From: Aneurinibacillus soli
GTDB taxonomy: Bacteria > Bacillota > Bacilli > Aneurinibacillales > Aneurinibacillaceae
Assembly (NCBI RefSeq): GCF_002355375.1
Contig: NZ_AP017312.1
Span: forward strand, 799,501 to 863,500
Direction of reading: 5' to 3'
Length of the DNA: 64,000 nt
Notes under the pieces: generated by a model
Database searches by the model: none
What the model was told of the DNA's origin: nothing
What the model saw: only the letters and a program-made list of their open reading frames with translations
Shown: piece after piece, positions 39,365 to 63,723 of the stretch
Position numbering within the stretch: the first letter of the stretch is position 1
Layout: each line of letters begins with the position of its first letter
Made by a program: the position numbers and the translations under genes

Positions 39365-39545
39365 GTATGCTTACTGTAACATGACGCATACAACGCGATA
39401 GGTGCCCCGATCCGGGGAGAATAGGGAAGAAAACACGCGGGCCCGCCACTGTAACCGGGGAGCCGTCCACAGTCACTGGAATAATTCCGGGAAGGCGGTG
39501 GACAGATGGCTATGATCCGGCAGCCAGGAGACCTGCCTATTGCAA
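39365..39545 (+). ncRNA. Cobalamin (B12) riboswitch
   Basis: Canonical consensus elements occur in order: GATAGGTGCCCC (39396 on), GAATAGGGAA, CCCGCCACTGTAA, GGGGAGCC, CACTGG, GGGAAGGCGG, GATGGCTATGATCCG and the B12-box GCCAGGAGACCTGCC. A leading hairpin GTATGC/GCATAC (39366-39388) precedes the core. It senses adenosylcobalamin or a related corrinoid and sits in the leader of cobT and the downstream cluster. Confidence 0.97.
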
Positions 39546-39590
39546 GCATTGCCGTTCACGTGGAACGAACGGATACGAACCGGATATGGC

Positions 39591-56558: not shown

Positions 56559-59500
56559 ATGGCAAAAATCAAATCCATTTATGCAGTGTTTCTTTCGTTT
56601 CTTTTCGTCTTTTCAACGTGTATAGGGGGTTTACCTACGAATCTTGTGTATGCAAGTTCGTCTTGGGATTCAGTAGGCACTGCGGGTTTCTCAGCTGGTG
56701 GTATTTCCGACACTTCGCTTGCGATTGCCCCGGATGGAACGCCATACGTAGCGTATGTGGATGAGAAGAACAGTAAGAAACCCACGGTCATGAAGTTGAA
56801 CGGATCAAGTTGGGAGGCAGTAGGCACTGCGGCTGTCTCAGATGTTGTAGCTATGAAAACTTCGCTTGCGATTGCTCCGGATGGAACGCCATACGTAGCG
56901 TATGTGGATGAGTTTAACAGTTATAAAGCCACGGTCATGAAGTTTAACAAATCAAGTTGGGAGAAAGTAGGCGATGCGGGTTTCTCAGCCGGTTTTGCTG
57001 ACTACACTTCGCTTGCGATTGATAAGAAAGGAACGCCATACGTAGCGTATCAGGATATTGTGAACGGTTCTAAAGCCACGGTCATGAAGTTTAATGGATT
57101 AAGTTGGGAGAAAGTAGGCGATGTGGGTTTCTCAGCCGCTGTAGCTCACTATACTTCGCTTGCGATTGCTCCGGATGGAACGCCATACGTAGCGTATCAG
57201 GATAATGGGAACAGTGCTAAAGCCACGGTCATGAAGTTTAACGGGTCAAGTTGGGTGCCAGTAGACTCTGCGGGTTTCTCAGCCGGTGAAGCTAAGTACA
57301 CTTCGCTTGCGATTGATAAGTATGGAATGCCATACGTAGCGTATCAGGATGGTGGGAACCGTTCTAAAGCCACGGTCATGAAGTTTAACGGATTAAGTTG
57401 GGTGCCAGTAGGCGATGTGGGTTTCTCAGCCGGTCAAGTTTTCGAAACTTCGCTTGCGATTGATAAGGAAGGAACGCCATACGTAGCATATAGGGATGTT
57501 GGGAACCGTTCTAAAGCCACGGTCATGAAGTTTAACGGATCAAGTTGGGTGCCAGTAGGCGATGTGGGTTTCTCAGCCGATGTAGCTGTGTACCCTTCGC
57601 TTGCGATTGATAAGGAAGGAACGTCATACGTAGCGTATATGGATGTTGGGAACAGTGCTAAAGCCACGGTTATGAAGTTTGTTCCTCCTGTAGCGGTTAC
57701 AAGCGTGGCGTTGAATAAAAATACATTGACACTGACAGCGGGAGGAGCAACGGGAAGTCTAACAGCTACGGTAAGTCCAGATAATGCGACAAATAAGAAG
57801 GTAACCTGGAGCAGCAGTAACTCAACTGTAGCAACCGTAGATGCAAATGGAGTCGTGACGCCAAAAGCAGCGGGAACATCCACGATTACGGTTACGACAG
57901 AAGATGGCAACCAAATCGCAACATGTGTGGTTACGGTACAAGCAGCTCTTAGCGATCTTACGGTAAGTGAAGGAGCGTTACAGCCTGCTTTCTCGACGAC
58001 ACAGGATACGTATTCCGTTGATGTAACAAATGATGTGACATCGATTACCGTAGCTGCTACGGCAGCGGACCCGCAGTACAAAGTTTTCATCAAGGGAAAT
58101 GAGACTACATCGGATACAATTACTCTTGATGTAGGAGCGAATACGATTCCAGTAAAAGTGGTAGCGCCAAATGATGCCGAAGAGAAGACAGCAAAGACGT
58201 ATACGATTACGGCCAATCGAGGAAGTGTACCGGTATCGGGTGTCGCATTGGATTCATCAACATTGAGTCTAACAGCAGGAGGCAATACGGCAACGCTGAC
58301 GGCGACGGTGAATCCAGACAATGCGACAAACAAAAAGGTAACCTGGAGCAGCAGTAACTCAACGGTAGCAACCGTAGATGCGAATGGAGTCGTGACGCCA
58401 AAAGCAGCGGGAACATCCACGATTACGGTTACGACAGAAGACGGAAACAAAACCGCAACATGTGCGGTTACGGTACAGGATGAGATAGGGGTAACGAGTG
58501 TCACGCTAGATAAGACGACAGTGAGCCTGACAGCAGGAGGAAGCCCAGCTACACTGAAGGCTACGGTAAATCCAGACAATGCGACAAACAAAAAGATAAC
58601 CTGGAGCAGCAGTAACCCAACGGTAGCAACCGTAGATGCGAATGGAGTCGTGACGCCAAAAGCAGCGGGAACATCTACAATTACGGTTACGACAGAAGAT
58701 GGCAACAAAACAGCAATATGTGCGGTTACGGTACAGGCAGCATCTTCCGGTGGCAGTAGCGGAGGAGGCGGTGGTGGAAGTCGAGACACGTCTTCTTCTA
58801 CTAATACGCGGACCTCTTCCGTTCTAGTTGGTGAGAATGAAAAAGGAAAACAGGCAGCGAGTGTAGAGATCATCCGAACCGTTACAGCCGACGGGAAAAA
58901 GAGTGATACCGTTACTCTGGATGCCAAAAAAGCAGCCGAAGCGATTGCCAAAGCGACAGGCACCATGAATATGGTAACGCTCCCGATCCCTGACCTGAAG
59001 GGAAATGAAGCGCAGGAAATCGTAGCGAATGTACAGAAAGAGGCATTGGCTACCATGGCAGACAAAGGATTCTCTGCCCAGGTTGTGACAGATAAAGCGA
59101 CGATTGAGCTTCCGAAAGAAACGGTGTCGTCTCTCAGTAAAAAAGACGTATATATGAAAATCGAGCCGGTAACGAAAGAAAACGAGATTCAACAAACCAA
59201 AACATTGCTGAGTGTACAGGCGAAGGATGGTAGTGTAATCGGAACTTCGTTACACATCGAGACAAACTTCTTGGGTCGTACGAAAATCACACTCCCATTA
59301 ACGGGAATGAACATTCCGACAGATGCGAAGAAACAGGAAGATTTCCTCCAATCACTTGGCGTCTTTATTGAGCATAGTGATGGGGAGAAAAAAGTCGACA
59401 AAGGCGAAATTCAATATGACGAGAAGCACAATCCGATCGGTCTCTCTATTTGGGTAGATAAATTCAGTACGTTCACACTTGTCAATCTGCCGAAAACAAA

Positions 59501-60032
59501 AGTTCCGGTATTCACCGACATTCAAGGTCATTGGGCCCAATCACATATTCAGCAGCTTGTACAAAGCGGAGCGGTTAGCGGCTATCCAGATGGAACGTTT
59601 AAACCAAACAAGACGATTACGCGCGCTGAGTTTGTAGCGATGGTTGTCAAAGCATTTGGCTTACAGCCGAAAGAGAATATGGATATTGCTTTTACCGATA
59701 CGAAAAACCACTGGGCAAAAGCTGCGATCGAAACAGCGTATGCGAATGGCATCATCAATGGCTACAACGCGACCACGTTTGGAGCAGATGACACGATTAC
59801 GCGTGAACAAATGGCAGTTATCCTGACGAACATCAAGAAGAACGGTACAGAAGGAAAACAGCTGTCATTTAAAGATGCAACGTCGATCTCTGCATGGGCA
59901 CAGAAAGCGGTGAGCCGAGCTGTGGAAGAAGGAATCATTATGGGTTATCCCGATCAAACGTTCAAGCCGAATAAAACGGCGACAAGAGCGGAAGCCGTAA
60001 CGATGATTCACAACGCTTTAACTATGAAATAA
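56559..60032 (+). CDS. Large S-layer-homology surface protein with seven 49-residue repeats and Big2 domains
   Basis: 1157 residues. A signal peptide (cleavage likely after VYA, residue 32) is followed by seven tandem 49-residue repeats (about 50-375), each containing LAI.P/KxGTPYVAY and ATVMKFNGSSW. Next come a Big2 domain (about 380-465), a cadherin-like beta-sandwich (about 470-550), and two further Big2 domains (about 555-730). A Gly/Ser linker, a roughly 230-residue domain without a name I can give, and three C-terminal SLH domains (FTDIQGHWAQ, FTDTKNHWAK, FKDATSISAWAQK, each with YPDGTFKPN- or TRAE-type text) complete it. SLH domains bind pyruvylated secondary cell-wall polymer, so the protein is cell-surface displayed. 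Start ATG 56559 follows AAAGGGG. Confidence 0.93.
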   Translation: MAKIKSIYAVFLSFLFVFSTCIGGLPTNLVYASSSWDSVGTAGFSAGGISDTSLAIAPDGTPYVAYVDEKNSKKPTVMKLNGSSWEAVGTAAVSDVVAMKTSLAIAPDGTPYVAYVDEFNSYKATVMKFNKSSWEKVGDAGFSAGFADYTSLAIDKKGTPYVAYQDIVNGSKATVMKFNGLSWEKVGDVGFSAAVAHYTSLAIAPDGTPYVAYQDNGNSAKATVMKFNGSSWVPVDSAGFSAGEAKYTSLAIDKYGMPYVAYQDGGNRSKATVMKFNGLSWVPVGDVGFSAGQVFETSLAIDKEGTPYVAYRDVGNRSKATVMKFNGSSWVPVGDVGFSADVAVYPSLAIDKEGTSYVAYMDVGNSAKATVMKFVPPVAVTSVALNKNTLTLTAGGATGSLTATVSPDNATNKKVTWSSSNSTVATVDANGVVTPKAAGTSTITVTTEDGNQIATCVVTVQAALSDLTVSEGALQPAFSTTQDTYSVDVTNDVTSITVAATAADPQYKVFIKGNETTSDTITLDVGANTIPVKVVAPNDAEEKTAKTYTITANRGSVPVSGVALDSSTLSLTAGGNTATLTATVNPDNATNKKVTWSSSNSTVATVDANGVVTPKAAGTSTITVTTEDGNKTATCAVTVQDEIGVTSVTLDKTTVSLTAGGSPATLKATVNPDNATNKKITWSSSNPTVATVDANGVVTPKAAGTSTITVTTEDGNKTAICAVTVQAASSGGSSGGGGGGSRDTSSSTNTRTSSVLVGENEKGKQAASVEIIRTVTADGKKSDTVTLDAKKAAEAIAKATGTMNMVTLPIPDLKGNEAQEIVANVQKEALATMADKGFSAQVVTDKATIELPKETVSSLSKKDVYMKIEPVTKENEIQQTKTLLSVQAKDGSVIGTSLHIETNFLGRTKITLPLTGMNIPTDAKKQEDFLQSLGVFIEHSDGEKKVDKGEIQYDEKHNPIGLSIWVDKFSTFTLVNLPKTKVPVFTDIQGHWAQSHIQQLVQSGAVSGYPDGTFKPNKTITRAEFVAMVVKAFGLQPKENMDIAFTDTKNHWAKAAIETAYANGIINGYNATTFGADDTITREQMAVILTNIKKNGTEGKQLSFKDATSISAWAQKAVSRAVEEGIIMGYPDQTFKPNKTATRAEAVTMIHNALTMK
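56660..57680 (+). repeat. Seven 147-bp tandem coding repeats
   Basis: The marker CTTCGCTTGCGATT (CCTTCGC in the last) begins at 56713, 56860, 57007, 57154, 57301, 57448 and 57595: exactly 147 bp apart each time, with no length variation. Copies are near-identical in their GGAACGCCATACGTAGCGTAT and AAAGCCACGGTCATGAAGTT segments and variable in between. Confidence 0.95.
57710..58735 (+). repeat. Three near-identical Big2-domain DNA repeats
   Basis: Segments containing GATGCAAATGGAGTCGTGACG or its single-base variants recur at about 57839, 58376 and 58634, within roughly 250-bp units. Stretches such as GCAGCGGGAACATCCACGAT are shared base for base, which suggests recent duplication or gene conversion. 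The first unit is separated from the others by the cadherin-like domain. Confidence 0.85.
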
Positions 60033-62508: not shown

Positions 62509-62622
62509 GCATATTCCTCCTTTATATGTAAGCATCTTTCTTGCTATGGATTAGTATGGGAAGAAACGGCTGTTTTGATCGCTGAAATAATTGGAAATTA
62601 TGTTTTGGGGTAGGGGAAGTCC

Positions 62623-62837
62623 AAAGTTTGGTGGTGGGTAAGAGAAGGGATGAGCCCGTCACTTTGTTACGCTTAGCGGAGAAGAAGGGGCTGGCCGCTC
62701 CAGGAGCCAGGTGAACTCGCCCACAAAAAGAGGCCGGGGGAGTTTCTCATAGAAGTGTTGTGGGCAAAAGCCCGTTCACCAGTCTCCTTCCGCTGGGGAG
62801 TCGCGTAAAGGCGTTCCTTGGCTCATCCCTTCTCTTA
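62623..62837 (-). ncRNA. Candidate structured RNA/repeat element, copy A
   Basis: Read on the minus strand it matches copy B in order and sequence blocks (GGAACGCCTTTACGCG, AGCGGAAGGAG, CTCGCCC on the appropriate strand). Stems: closing 62639-62656 with 62820-62837 (18 bp, perfect); TTACGC/GCGTAA at 62667-62672 and 62803-62808; GGTGAAC/GTTCACC at 62710-62716 and 62774-62780; GCCCACAA/TTGTGGGC at 62719-62726 and 62758-62765; AGCGG/CCGCT at 62675-62679 and 62695-62699. The transcribed strand is not certain. Confidence 0.5.
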
Positions 62838-62899
62838 TCCAAGCAAGTTTTTGTGCTCTACGCTCAAACACAAATTTTCATGTTGGGCATATATAATGA

Positions 62900-62946
62900 A
62901 ATAGGGTGTCTTTGACGTCATTTAATGACGTCAAAGACACCCTATT
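62900..62946. repeat. 47-bp perfect palindrome
   Basis: Arms 62900-62922 and 62924-62946 (23 bp each) are exact reverse complements around one base. Each arm contains TTTGACGTCATT, so the 8-bp palindrome TGACGTCA appears twice. No T run follows on either strand. Confidence 0.9.
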
Positions 62947-63022
62947 CTTACAAAAAATAGCTGTTATATAGCAATGTTTTGTATCAAACGATTTGTTTGT
63001 TGTTTGAATGAAAAAGTAGGTT

Positions 63023-63241
63023 GGGAGCAGAGAAGAGAGAAGCAGGGAACGCCTTTACGCGCCCGCCTAGCGGAAGGAGGGAGGCAAACGGGCCTTTGCC
63101 CGCGACCATTCAGCGAAAAGGCTTCATTGTCTCCTTTTCGCGGGCGAGTTTGCCGGACTTCTGGAGCGGACAGCTTCCGCATCATTGGAAGCGTAATAAA
63201 GTGACAGGCTTCTCTCTTCTCTGCTCCCCCGCCCAAACTTT
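63023..63241 (+). ncRNA. Candidate structured RNA/repeat element, copy B
   Basis: Closing stem 63023-63043 with 63208-63228 is perfect over 21 bp. Inner stems: TTACGC/GCGTAA at 63055-63060 and 63191-63196; GGCAAAC/GTTTGCC at 63083-63089 and 63148-63154; GCCCGCGA/TCGCGGGC at 63098-63105 and 63138-63145; GCGGA/TCCGC at 63166-63170 and 63176-63180. Stem sequences differ from copy A but both copies pair. Orientation shown is the one giving TTACGC first and is opposite to copy A. Confidence 0.5.
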
Positions 63242-63273
63242 CTCGATTCCACTAACCGCAAACAAACGTATTT

Positions 63274-63665: not shown

Positions 63666-63723
63666 TAACACAATGCAAAAGCCCGGAGCATATGCGTATG
63701 CTCCGGGCTTTTGCATTGTGTTA
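63666..63723. repeat. 58-bp perfect hairpin abutting the coat-protein gene stop
   Basis: Arms of 27 bp (63666-63692 and 63697-63723) flank TGCG. The outer three bases of the right arm are the TAA stop codon of the minus-strand CotF-like gene. It probably terminates or protects that transcript, although no T run follows. Confidence 0.85.

Follow-up and report, generated by a model that had tools for sequence, protein, structure and literature searches.

Comparative analysis of a 64,000-nucleotide stretch of the Aneurinibacillus soli genome (the window) has identified two copies of a large, dispersed family of structured-RNA mobile elements of Bacilli. Comparison shows that the family is real, abundant and apparently uncatalogued; its transcription is inferred. 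The element body is roughly 200-245 nt long, and its sequence varies freely with the RNA fold kept. The two copies in the window, A on the minus strand and B on the plus strand, are best explained as partner copies of a non-autonomous mobile repeat with a conserved structured-RNA body, a reading held with moderate confidence and for which there are no expression data.

A first-pass annotation, made from the letters of the window alone, had described two inverted and diverged copies with covarying stems. This description has held, A and B having been found where it had placed them, and the family is far larger than that annotation could show. The two copies are 71.6% alike over about 213 nt. 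The fold energy was -114.9 kcal/mol for B (z -6.5) and -93.1 kcal/mol for A (z -4.8), and 0 of 200 dinucleotide shuffles reached the value of either copy. Covariance model R1 scored A at 207 bits (E 5e-57 in the genome, at G000:C1:862135-862335) and B at 197.5 bits (G000:C1:862529-862728), G000 being the window's own genome. The useful extent of the pair exceeds the arms, at about 62620-62852 and 63012-63247 plus the 159-nt spacer (Table 1). The surroundings of the pair showed no sigma-70 promoter-like site, and neither clear terminal repeats nor a target duplication was seen at the window copies. Protein-coding arms were considered and rejected; the window copies have no long or evidently common reading frame.

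Table 1. Features of the A/B pair, in window positions.
Feature	Position	Strand	Remarks
Copy A, full arm	62620..62852	-	CM core 62635-62835; nhmmer 211.9 bits
Copy B, full arm	63012..63247	+	CM core 63029-63229; nhmmer 194.8 bits
A closing stem P1, 5' strand	62822..62833	-	partner 62643-62654
A closing stem P1, 3' strand	62643..62654	-	pairs with 62822-62833
A kink-turn-like GA + AC	62813..62816	-	partner GT + GA at 62659-62662
A P2 TTACGC	62803..62808	-	partner GCGTAA 62667-62672; covariation alignment
A P4 GTGAAC	62774..62779	-	partner GTTCAC 62711-62716; covariation alignment
A P5 TGCCCACAA	62758..62766	-	partner TTGTGGGCG 62718-62726; covariation alignment
A conserved GAGCGG(A/C)CAG motif	62691..62700	-	near-invariant class-wide
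B closing stem P1, 5' strand	63031..63042	+	partner 63209-63220
B closing stem P1, 3' strand	63209..63220	+	pairs with 63031-63042
B kink-turn-like GA + AC	63047..63050	+	partner GT + GA at 63201-63204
B P2 TTACGC	63055..63060	+	partner GCGTAA 63191-63196; covariation alignment
B P4 GCAAAC	63084..63089	+	partner GTTTGC 63148-63153; covariation alignment
B P5 TGCCCGCGA	63097..63105	+	partner TCGCGGGCG 63138-63146; covariation alignment
B conserved GAGCGGACAG motif	63164..63173	+	near-invariant class-wide
Spacer between divergent arms	62853..63011	.	159 nt
Spacer palindrome, perfect 23-bp	62900..62946	.	terminator-like on minus strand

The fold consists of the closing stem P1, a kink-turn-like tandem-GA step, P2 and a long P3-P4-P5 hairpin. 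Four helices that the first-pass annotation had proposed have been upheld as real family-wide, namely the closing stem with differing sequences in A and B, TTACGC/GCGTAA kept in both copies, GGTGAAC/GTTCACC in A with GGCAAAC/GTTTGCC in B, and GCCCACAA/TTGTGGGC in A with GCCCGCGA/TCGCGGGC in B. The 'AGCGG-type hairpin' that it had reported in both copies was not upheld as a family helix. AGCGG is a conserved motif that occurs twice; the first occurrence is part of a helix that includes CTTCCCTG, and most of the second (GAGCGGACAG) forms a loop. The core AGCGG...GAGCGGACAG...CTTCCCTG is near-invariant. Class-wide, 26 of 53 sequences have a tandem GA/GA that follows a short bulge and adjoins a covarying pair, an arrangement that we take to be the layout of a kink-turn.

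Comparison has shown that the fold is kept by compensatory change both within the genus and across Bacilli, with compensatory changes exceeding the controls in several helices. Alignment A2 was made by sequence only from 38 diverse copies, almost all of them members of the genus; 33 of its 43 predicted pairs had changes on both sides. Paired cells amounted to 94.8%, versus 83% in shuffled alignments and 37-54% with the partners slid, and there were 216 double-changed cells against a shuffled mean of 63. The structure was derived from the same alignment, so the slid control favours it. In the class-wide set (A4), changes on both sides were found in 40 of 43 pairs, 94.0% of cells were paired (41-51% slid), and 822 cells were double-changed, versus 236 when shuffled. 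This set is the stronger test by its divergence, but its alignment was fitted to the model. The closing stem P1 had changes on both sides in 11 of 11 pairs, and all four Watson-Crick pair types occur at many of its positions.

The strand on which selection acts was also determined. A decaying DNA pair is expected to give G-T on one strand and A-C on the other at equal rates. Read in the sense A-minus/B-plus, the alignment contained 69 G-U and 22 A-C cells, corresponding to 20 and 4 pair positions, respectively (p 0.0015). Rows added outside the core set gave 78 G-U versus 28 A-C cells and 19 versus 9 positions. Such cells are not independent, and it is the pair-level count that carries the support. 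The excess of G-U over A-C on one strand therefore indicates that the fold has been selected as RNA on the A-minus/B-plus strand, without expression data as yet. The first-pass claim of a conserved RNA structure with compensatory change is thus strongly upheld, by the structure-free alignment, then class-wide, and by the strand-specific G-U excess. Its opposition of RNA structure to a simple transposon repeat needs to be changed, because the family has hundreds of dispersed copies, multiplies as an A+B composite and carries IS-like terminal repeats on some copies; the element is a structured RNA and a mobile repeat.

Dozens of dispersed matches were found in G000 with A as the query, and likewise with B. 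Model R1 detected at least 150 full-length copies in this genome. The count is a lower bound imposed by the limit of scored candidates, and the true number is probably higher because the weakest of these still scored 148 bits. An order-level search with R1 gave 101 matches in a sister species of the same genus (G006), and 48 and 22 matches in G008 and G007, which represent two other genera of the family. G003 had 13 matches and G005 had 6, and several genomes of the order had none. At the level of the class, 37 of 300 sampled genomes matched, over 17 genera, mostly at full length and with several copies each. A covariance-model search of relatives had been proposed in the first-pass annotation; the homologues that it recovered across Bacilli preserve the pairing. 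A phylum scan of 398 genomes, mostly of other classes, with a second model that scored only 6 candidates per genome found none beyond the window's own genome, and no family member was found in the phages, plasmids and viral contigs searched. An exact DNA pattern run against the genome collection gave nine scattered single matches in unrelated phyla, which were taken as chance. The element had not been recognised as a named RNA class, and this also held, as the Rfam 15 covariance models gave no plausible match to the genus and class-wide copies at E up to 1-5. No description of the family was found in the open-access literature searched, which does not disprove its existence elsewhere. A structured RNA family that can reach hundreds of copies in a genome, spans many Bacilli genera and has no entry in Rfam would rank with the most abundant bacterial RNAs still uncatalogued, and the strong covariation provides a ready covariance model for annotation. 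Near-identical copies have recently expanded in G008. Unannotated copies also hamper assembly, since several G008 contigs terminate within the element.

The arrangement of the window pair recurs. Close neighbours amounted to 52 distinct cases, almost all from the genus, and 46 of them were (-,+), that is, divergent with their 5' ends facing. Divergent arrangements were also found in other families (L203, L205, L206, L216/L225, L218, L219, L243, and L285); L232, a tandem arrangement, was the one exception. Of the 38 full pairs in G000, 33 consisted of one A-clade and one B-clade arm, which are about 30-40% different, and the between-locus distances agreed for both arms (Mantel r 0.73, p 0.001). 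The A+B composition and the concordant distances therefore show that, in the genus, one A-type and one B-type arm in outward orientation multiply as a single unit. The idea that all head-to-head pairs are two independent insertions flanking a bidirectional terminator was also considered. It fits the window palindrome and a few others only, and is contradicted by the class-wide copies, in which upstream terminators are not enriched (see below), and by the A+B co-phylogeny.

Resident copies are constrained and keep their pairing after insertion, as shown in a small sample. In seven orthologous arms of G000 and G006, paired positions differed by 3.5-8% and unpaired positions by 9-20%. Of 32 changed pairs, 24 stayed paired, one of them by a double change, and 8 were broken; as a baseline, transitions alone keep about half of single changes. 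An eighth pair (L077/L020) was excluded as non-orthologous, the arms being different copies. Pairing kept at orthologous sites indicates that the structure is maintained in resident copies, within the limits of this modest sample. In another family, at one locus compared between two species, identity was 93-94% for the arms, 70% for the spacer, and about 92% for the aligned stretch as a whole. At two loci compared between G000 and G006, the arms and the flanks were alike. These data bear on a rival explanation, in which the copies are dispersed regulatory or structural RNAs of the host, acting on a neighbour or in trans and maintained by the host. Such a role is supported by the pairing kept in vertically inherited copies, the higher identity of arms than spacer at that one orthologous pair of loci, and the strong conservation of fold and core motif across families. 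It is nevertheless unlikely, as copy number ranges from at least 150 to none within one genus, neighbouring genes appear unrelated (for example, a folate operon at L246), and near-identical copies have spread recently in G008.

Evidence for mobility, which the preferred reading of a mobile repeat includes, comes from comparison of 160 kb of G000 with G006, where sites occupied by a pair or a solo arm in one of the two species have little or nothing in the other. At one of these sites, 749 bp are absent, including both flanking hairpins. A clean target duplication was not seen at the G000/G006 sites compared. The ends of G005 copies are sharply defined and carry imperfect terminal repeats of about 29 bp. 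The ends of these copies and of L165 in G008 (GGGTCTACATCAAACTCTGTGCTTGAC / GGCTCAATATCAAAG...) are close to GGCTCTACACCAAAGTCTGTTCTTGACA, the terminal repeats of an ISL3-family element in G006. Possible 8-bp target duplications match at 7 of 8 bases in L080 and L072, and there is none in L068. Most copies, including the window pair, have no clear terminal repeats. As for the alternative of a MITE or IS end, which the first-pass annotation had named, ISL3-like ends occur on some single copies and none are clear at the window pair. A plain ISL3-family MITE, with the fold a DNA palindrome and the covariation a product of hairpin-templated DNA repair or shared ancestry, would account for these ends and for the possible target duplications. 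This explanation is very unlikely. The roughly threefold excess of G-U over A-C on one strand is not given by DNA repair; unpaired motifs, asymmetric bulges and tandem GA/GA are all conserved; distant genera hold the family without ISL3-like ends; and pairing is far above the shuffled and slid controls. Compensatory change that preserves an internal RNA fold is, in addition, not expected of ISL3-family MITEs. As for an enzyme, an ISL3 transposase was found in 4 of 7 genus members and not in G000, and no autonomous partner element was identified. An ISL3-type transposase is a possible engine for the genus copies, and only a lead. The ISL3-family element of G006 (L120/L122) has 28-bp terminal repeats 93% identical and an interrupted transposase frame. 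An ISL3 element adjoining a G003 copy was rejected as a parent, as its own terminal repeats differ.

In the host genus and two related genera, copies adjoin intrinsic terminators. The G008/G007 form has exact ends and a leader, GTTAAAGAAAGTATATG..., which is a perfect hairpin in G008 (83 leader matches, both strands counted), and no target duplication was seen. All 42 distinct junctions inspected in G007 and G008 were T-rich, and a hairpin with a T-run lay directly before the element at 37 of them, compared with 71 of 1498 (4.7%) random places. Terminator-like T-runs were also found in these genomes right after the long closing stem. In G000, 57 of 105 arms were followed on their outer, downstream side by an antisense terminator, mostly 9-40 nt from the 3' end of the arm, versus 88 of 800 (11%) random places. 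In the more distant families of the class-wide set, upstream terminators were found at 13 of 67 copies against 14% of random places, with no clear enrichment, and the association is therefore lineage-dependent. Several further observations were made. In L300, L303, and L316 of G007/G008, the two ends of the element remain and the core is largely or wholly deleted; the core is perhaps dispensable for some forms, since L303 has the leader and 3' end without it. The leader of L292 (G010) is interrupted by an apparent IS110-type transposase gene. In flanks of G000 (for example, L012, L016, and L017), a hairpin whose loop is conserved as GTTCGCCATGTTCTGGC or GTCGCTGTGTTACAGC is repeatedly found beside the 3' ends of arms, and 5 of its 5 occurrences in 160 kb are within 100 bp of an arm.

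Insertion beside terminators raises a second rival, a retroelement comparable to a bacterial SINE, whose RNA is reverse-transcribed in trans and lands after terminators like group IIC introns. Group IIC introns insert after intrinsic terminators (PMC4424553), and the group II introns of G240 sit at such sites. The exact 5' end of G007/G008 copies directly after a host terminator, without target duplication, resembles this behaviour, and RNA-strand-specific selection is compatible with an RNA intermediate. Reverse transcriptases of PF00078 (RVT_1) are present in G008, G007, G240, G050, G185, and G258; the last, from another family, has 29 matches, many near-identical, and is a genome rich in group II introns. 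However, no RVT_1 was found in G000 or G006, the genomes richest in copies, and a reverse transcriptase as universal engine was rejected on this ground. Unlike group IIC introns, the element has no internal reverse transcriptase, and no ribozyme domains were found in it; Rfam group II models, domain V included, match the introns but not the element. Some genus copies also have terminal repeats like those of DNA transposons. Overall, the retroelement is doubtful.

A guide or scaffold RNA of an RNA-guided nuclease or recombinase, similar to omega-RNA or bridge-RNA and left as solo copies, has also been considered. In favour of it are multi-copy, highly structured and outward-facing RNAs at the ends of a composite. 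Against it, neither HEARO nor any other Rfam family matches, the long closing stem followed by T-runs in G007/G008 leaves no obvious guide segment, and inspection of short neighbourhoods, which fell short of a systematic search, revealed no nuclease gene. It is considered highly improbable.

Among described repeats, bcr1 and the other bcr repeats are the nearest kind, although the bcr1 sequence was not compared and homology is untested. The bcr repeats of the B. cereus group are chromosomal and intergenic, occur in tens to more than 100 copies, have stable predicted structure and mobile-element features, and are partly transcribed (PMC3446304, PMC6542083). The element resembles them in being chromosomal, intergenic and high in copy number, with predicted structure and mobile features. 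In contrast, bcr1 is about 147-167 bp long (PMC2267715), carries the motif TTTAT and is regarded as confined to the B. cereus group, whereas the element occurs in 17 genera, is 200-245 nt or more, and has divergent A+B pairs and a specific multi-helix fold. REPIN and BOX-type composites are similar in that inverted pairs or modules of hairpin-forming repeats move as composites. REPs are 20-40 bp (PMC3733652), whereas an arm of the element is a multi-helix domain several times that size.

For the mobile repeat favoured here, a mechanism can only be inferred. RNA would be transcribed from the element in the sense A-minus/B-plus, for which there are no expression data, and the element may depend on the fold for its own spread or persistence, with the fold serving, for instance, as a handle for a trans-acting enzyme. 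Sites beside terminators would be safe landing places outside coding sequence. A bolder reading, which can be held only as a possibility, is an undescribed class of gene-less mobile RNA in Bacilli, a bacterial counterpart of SINEs that would spread to hundreds of copies via an RNA step, target the 3' side of terminators and, in some lineages, form an obligate divergent pair of two RNAs. With this family it can be cleanly tested whether a mobile element without genes can come under selection as RNA, and also how elements find terminators as safe sites.

Other features were observed in the window. A cobalamin riboswitch (88.5 bits) was found at 39383-39554. A 1157-aa protein is encoded at 56559-60032 (+), with a signal-like start, repeated segments, and Ig-like and C-terminal S-layer-type repeats recognised by eye. 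A perfect palindrome of at least 20 bp at 63671-63718, between two minus-strand genes, resembles a very strong terminator.
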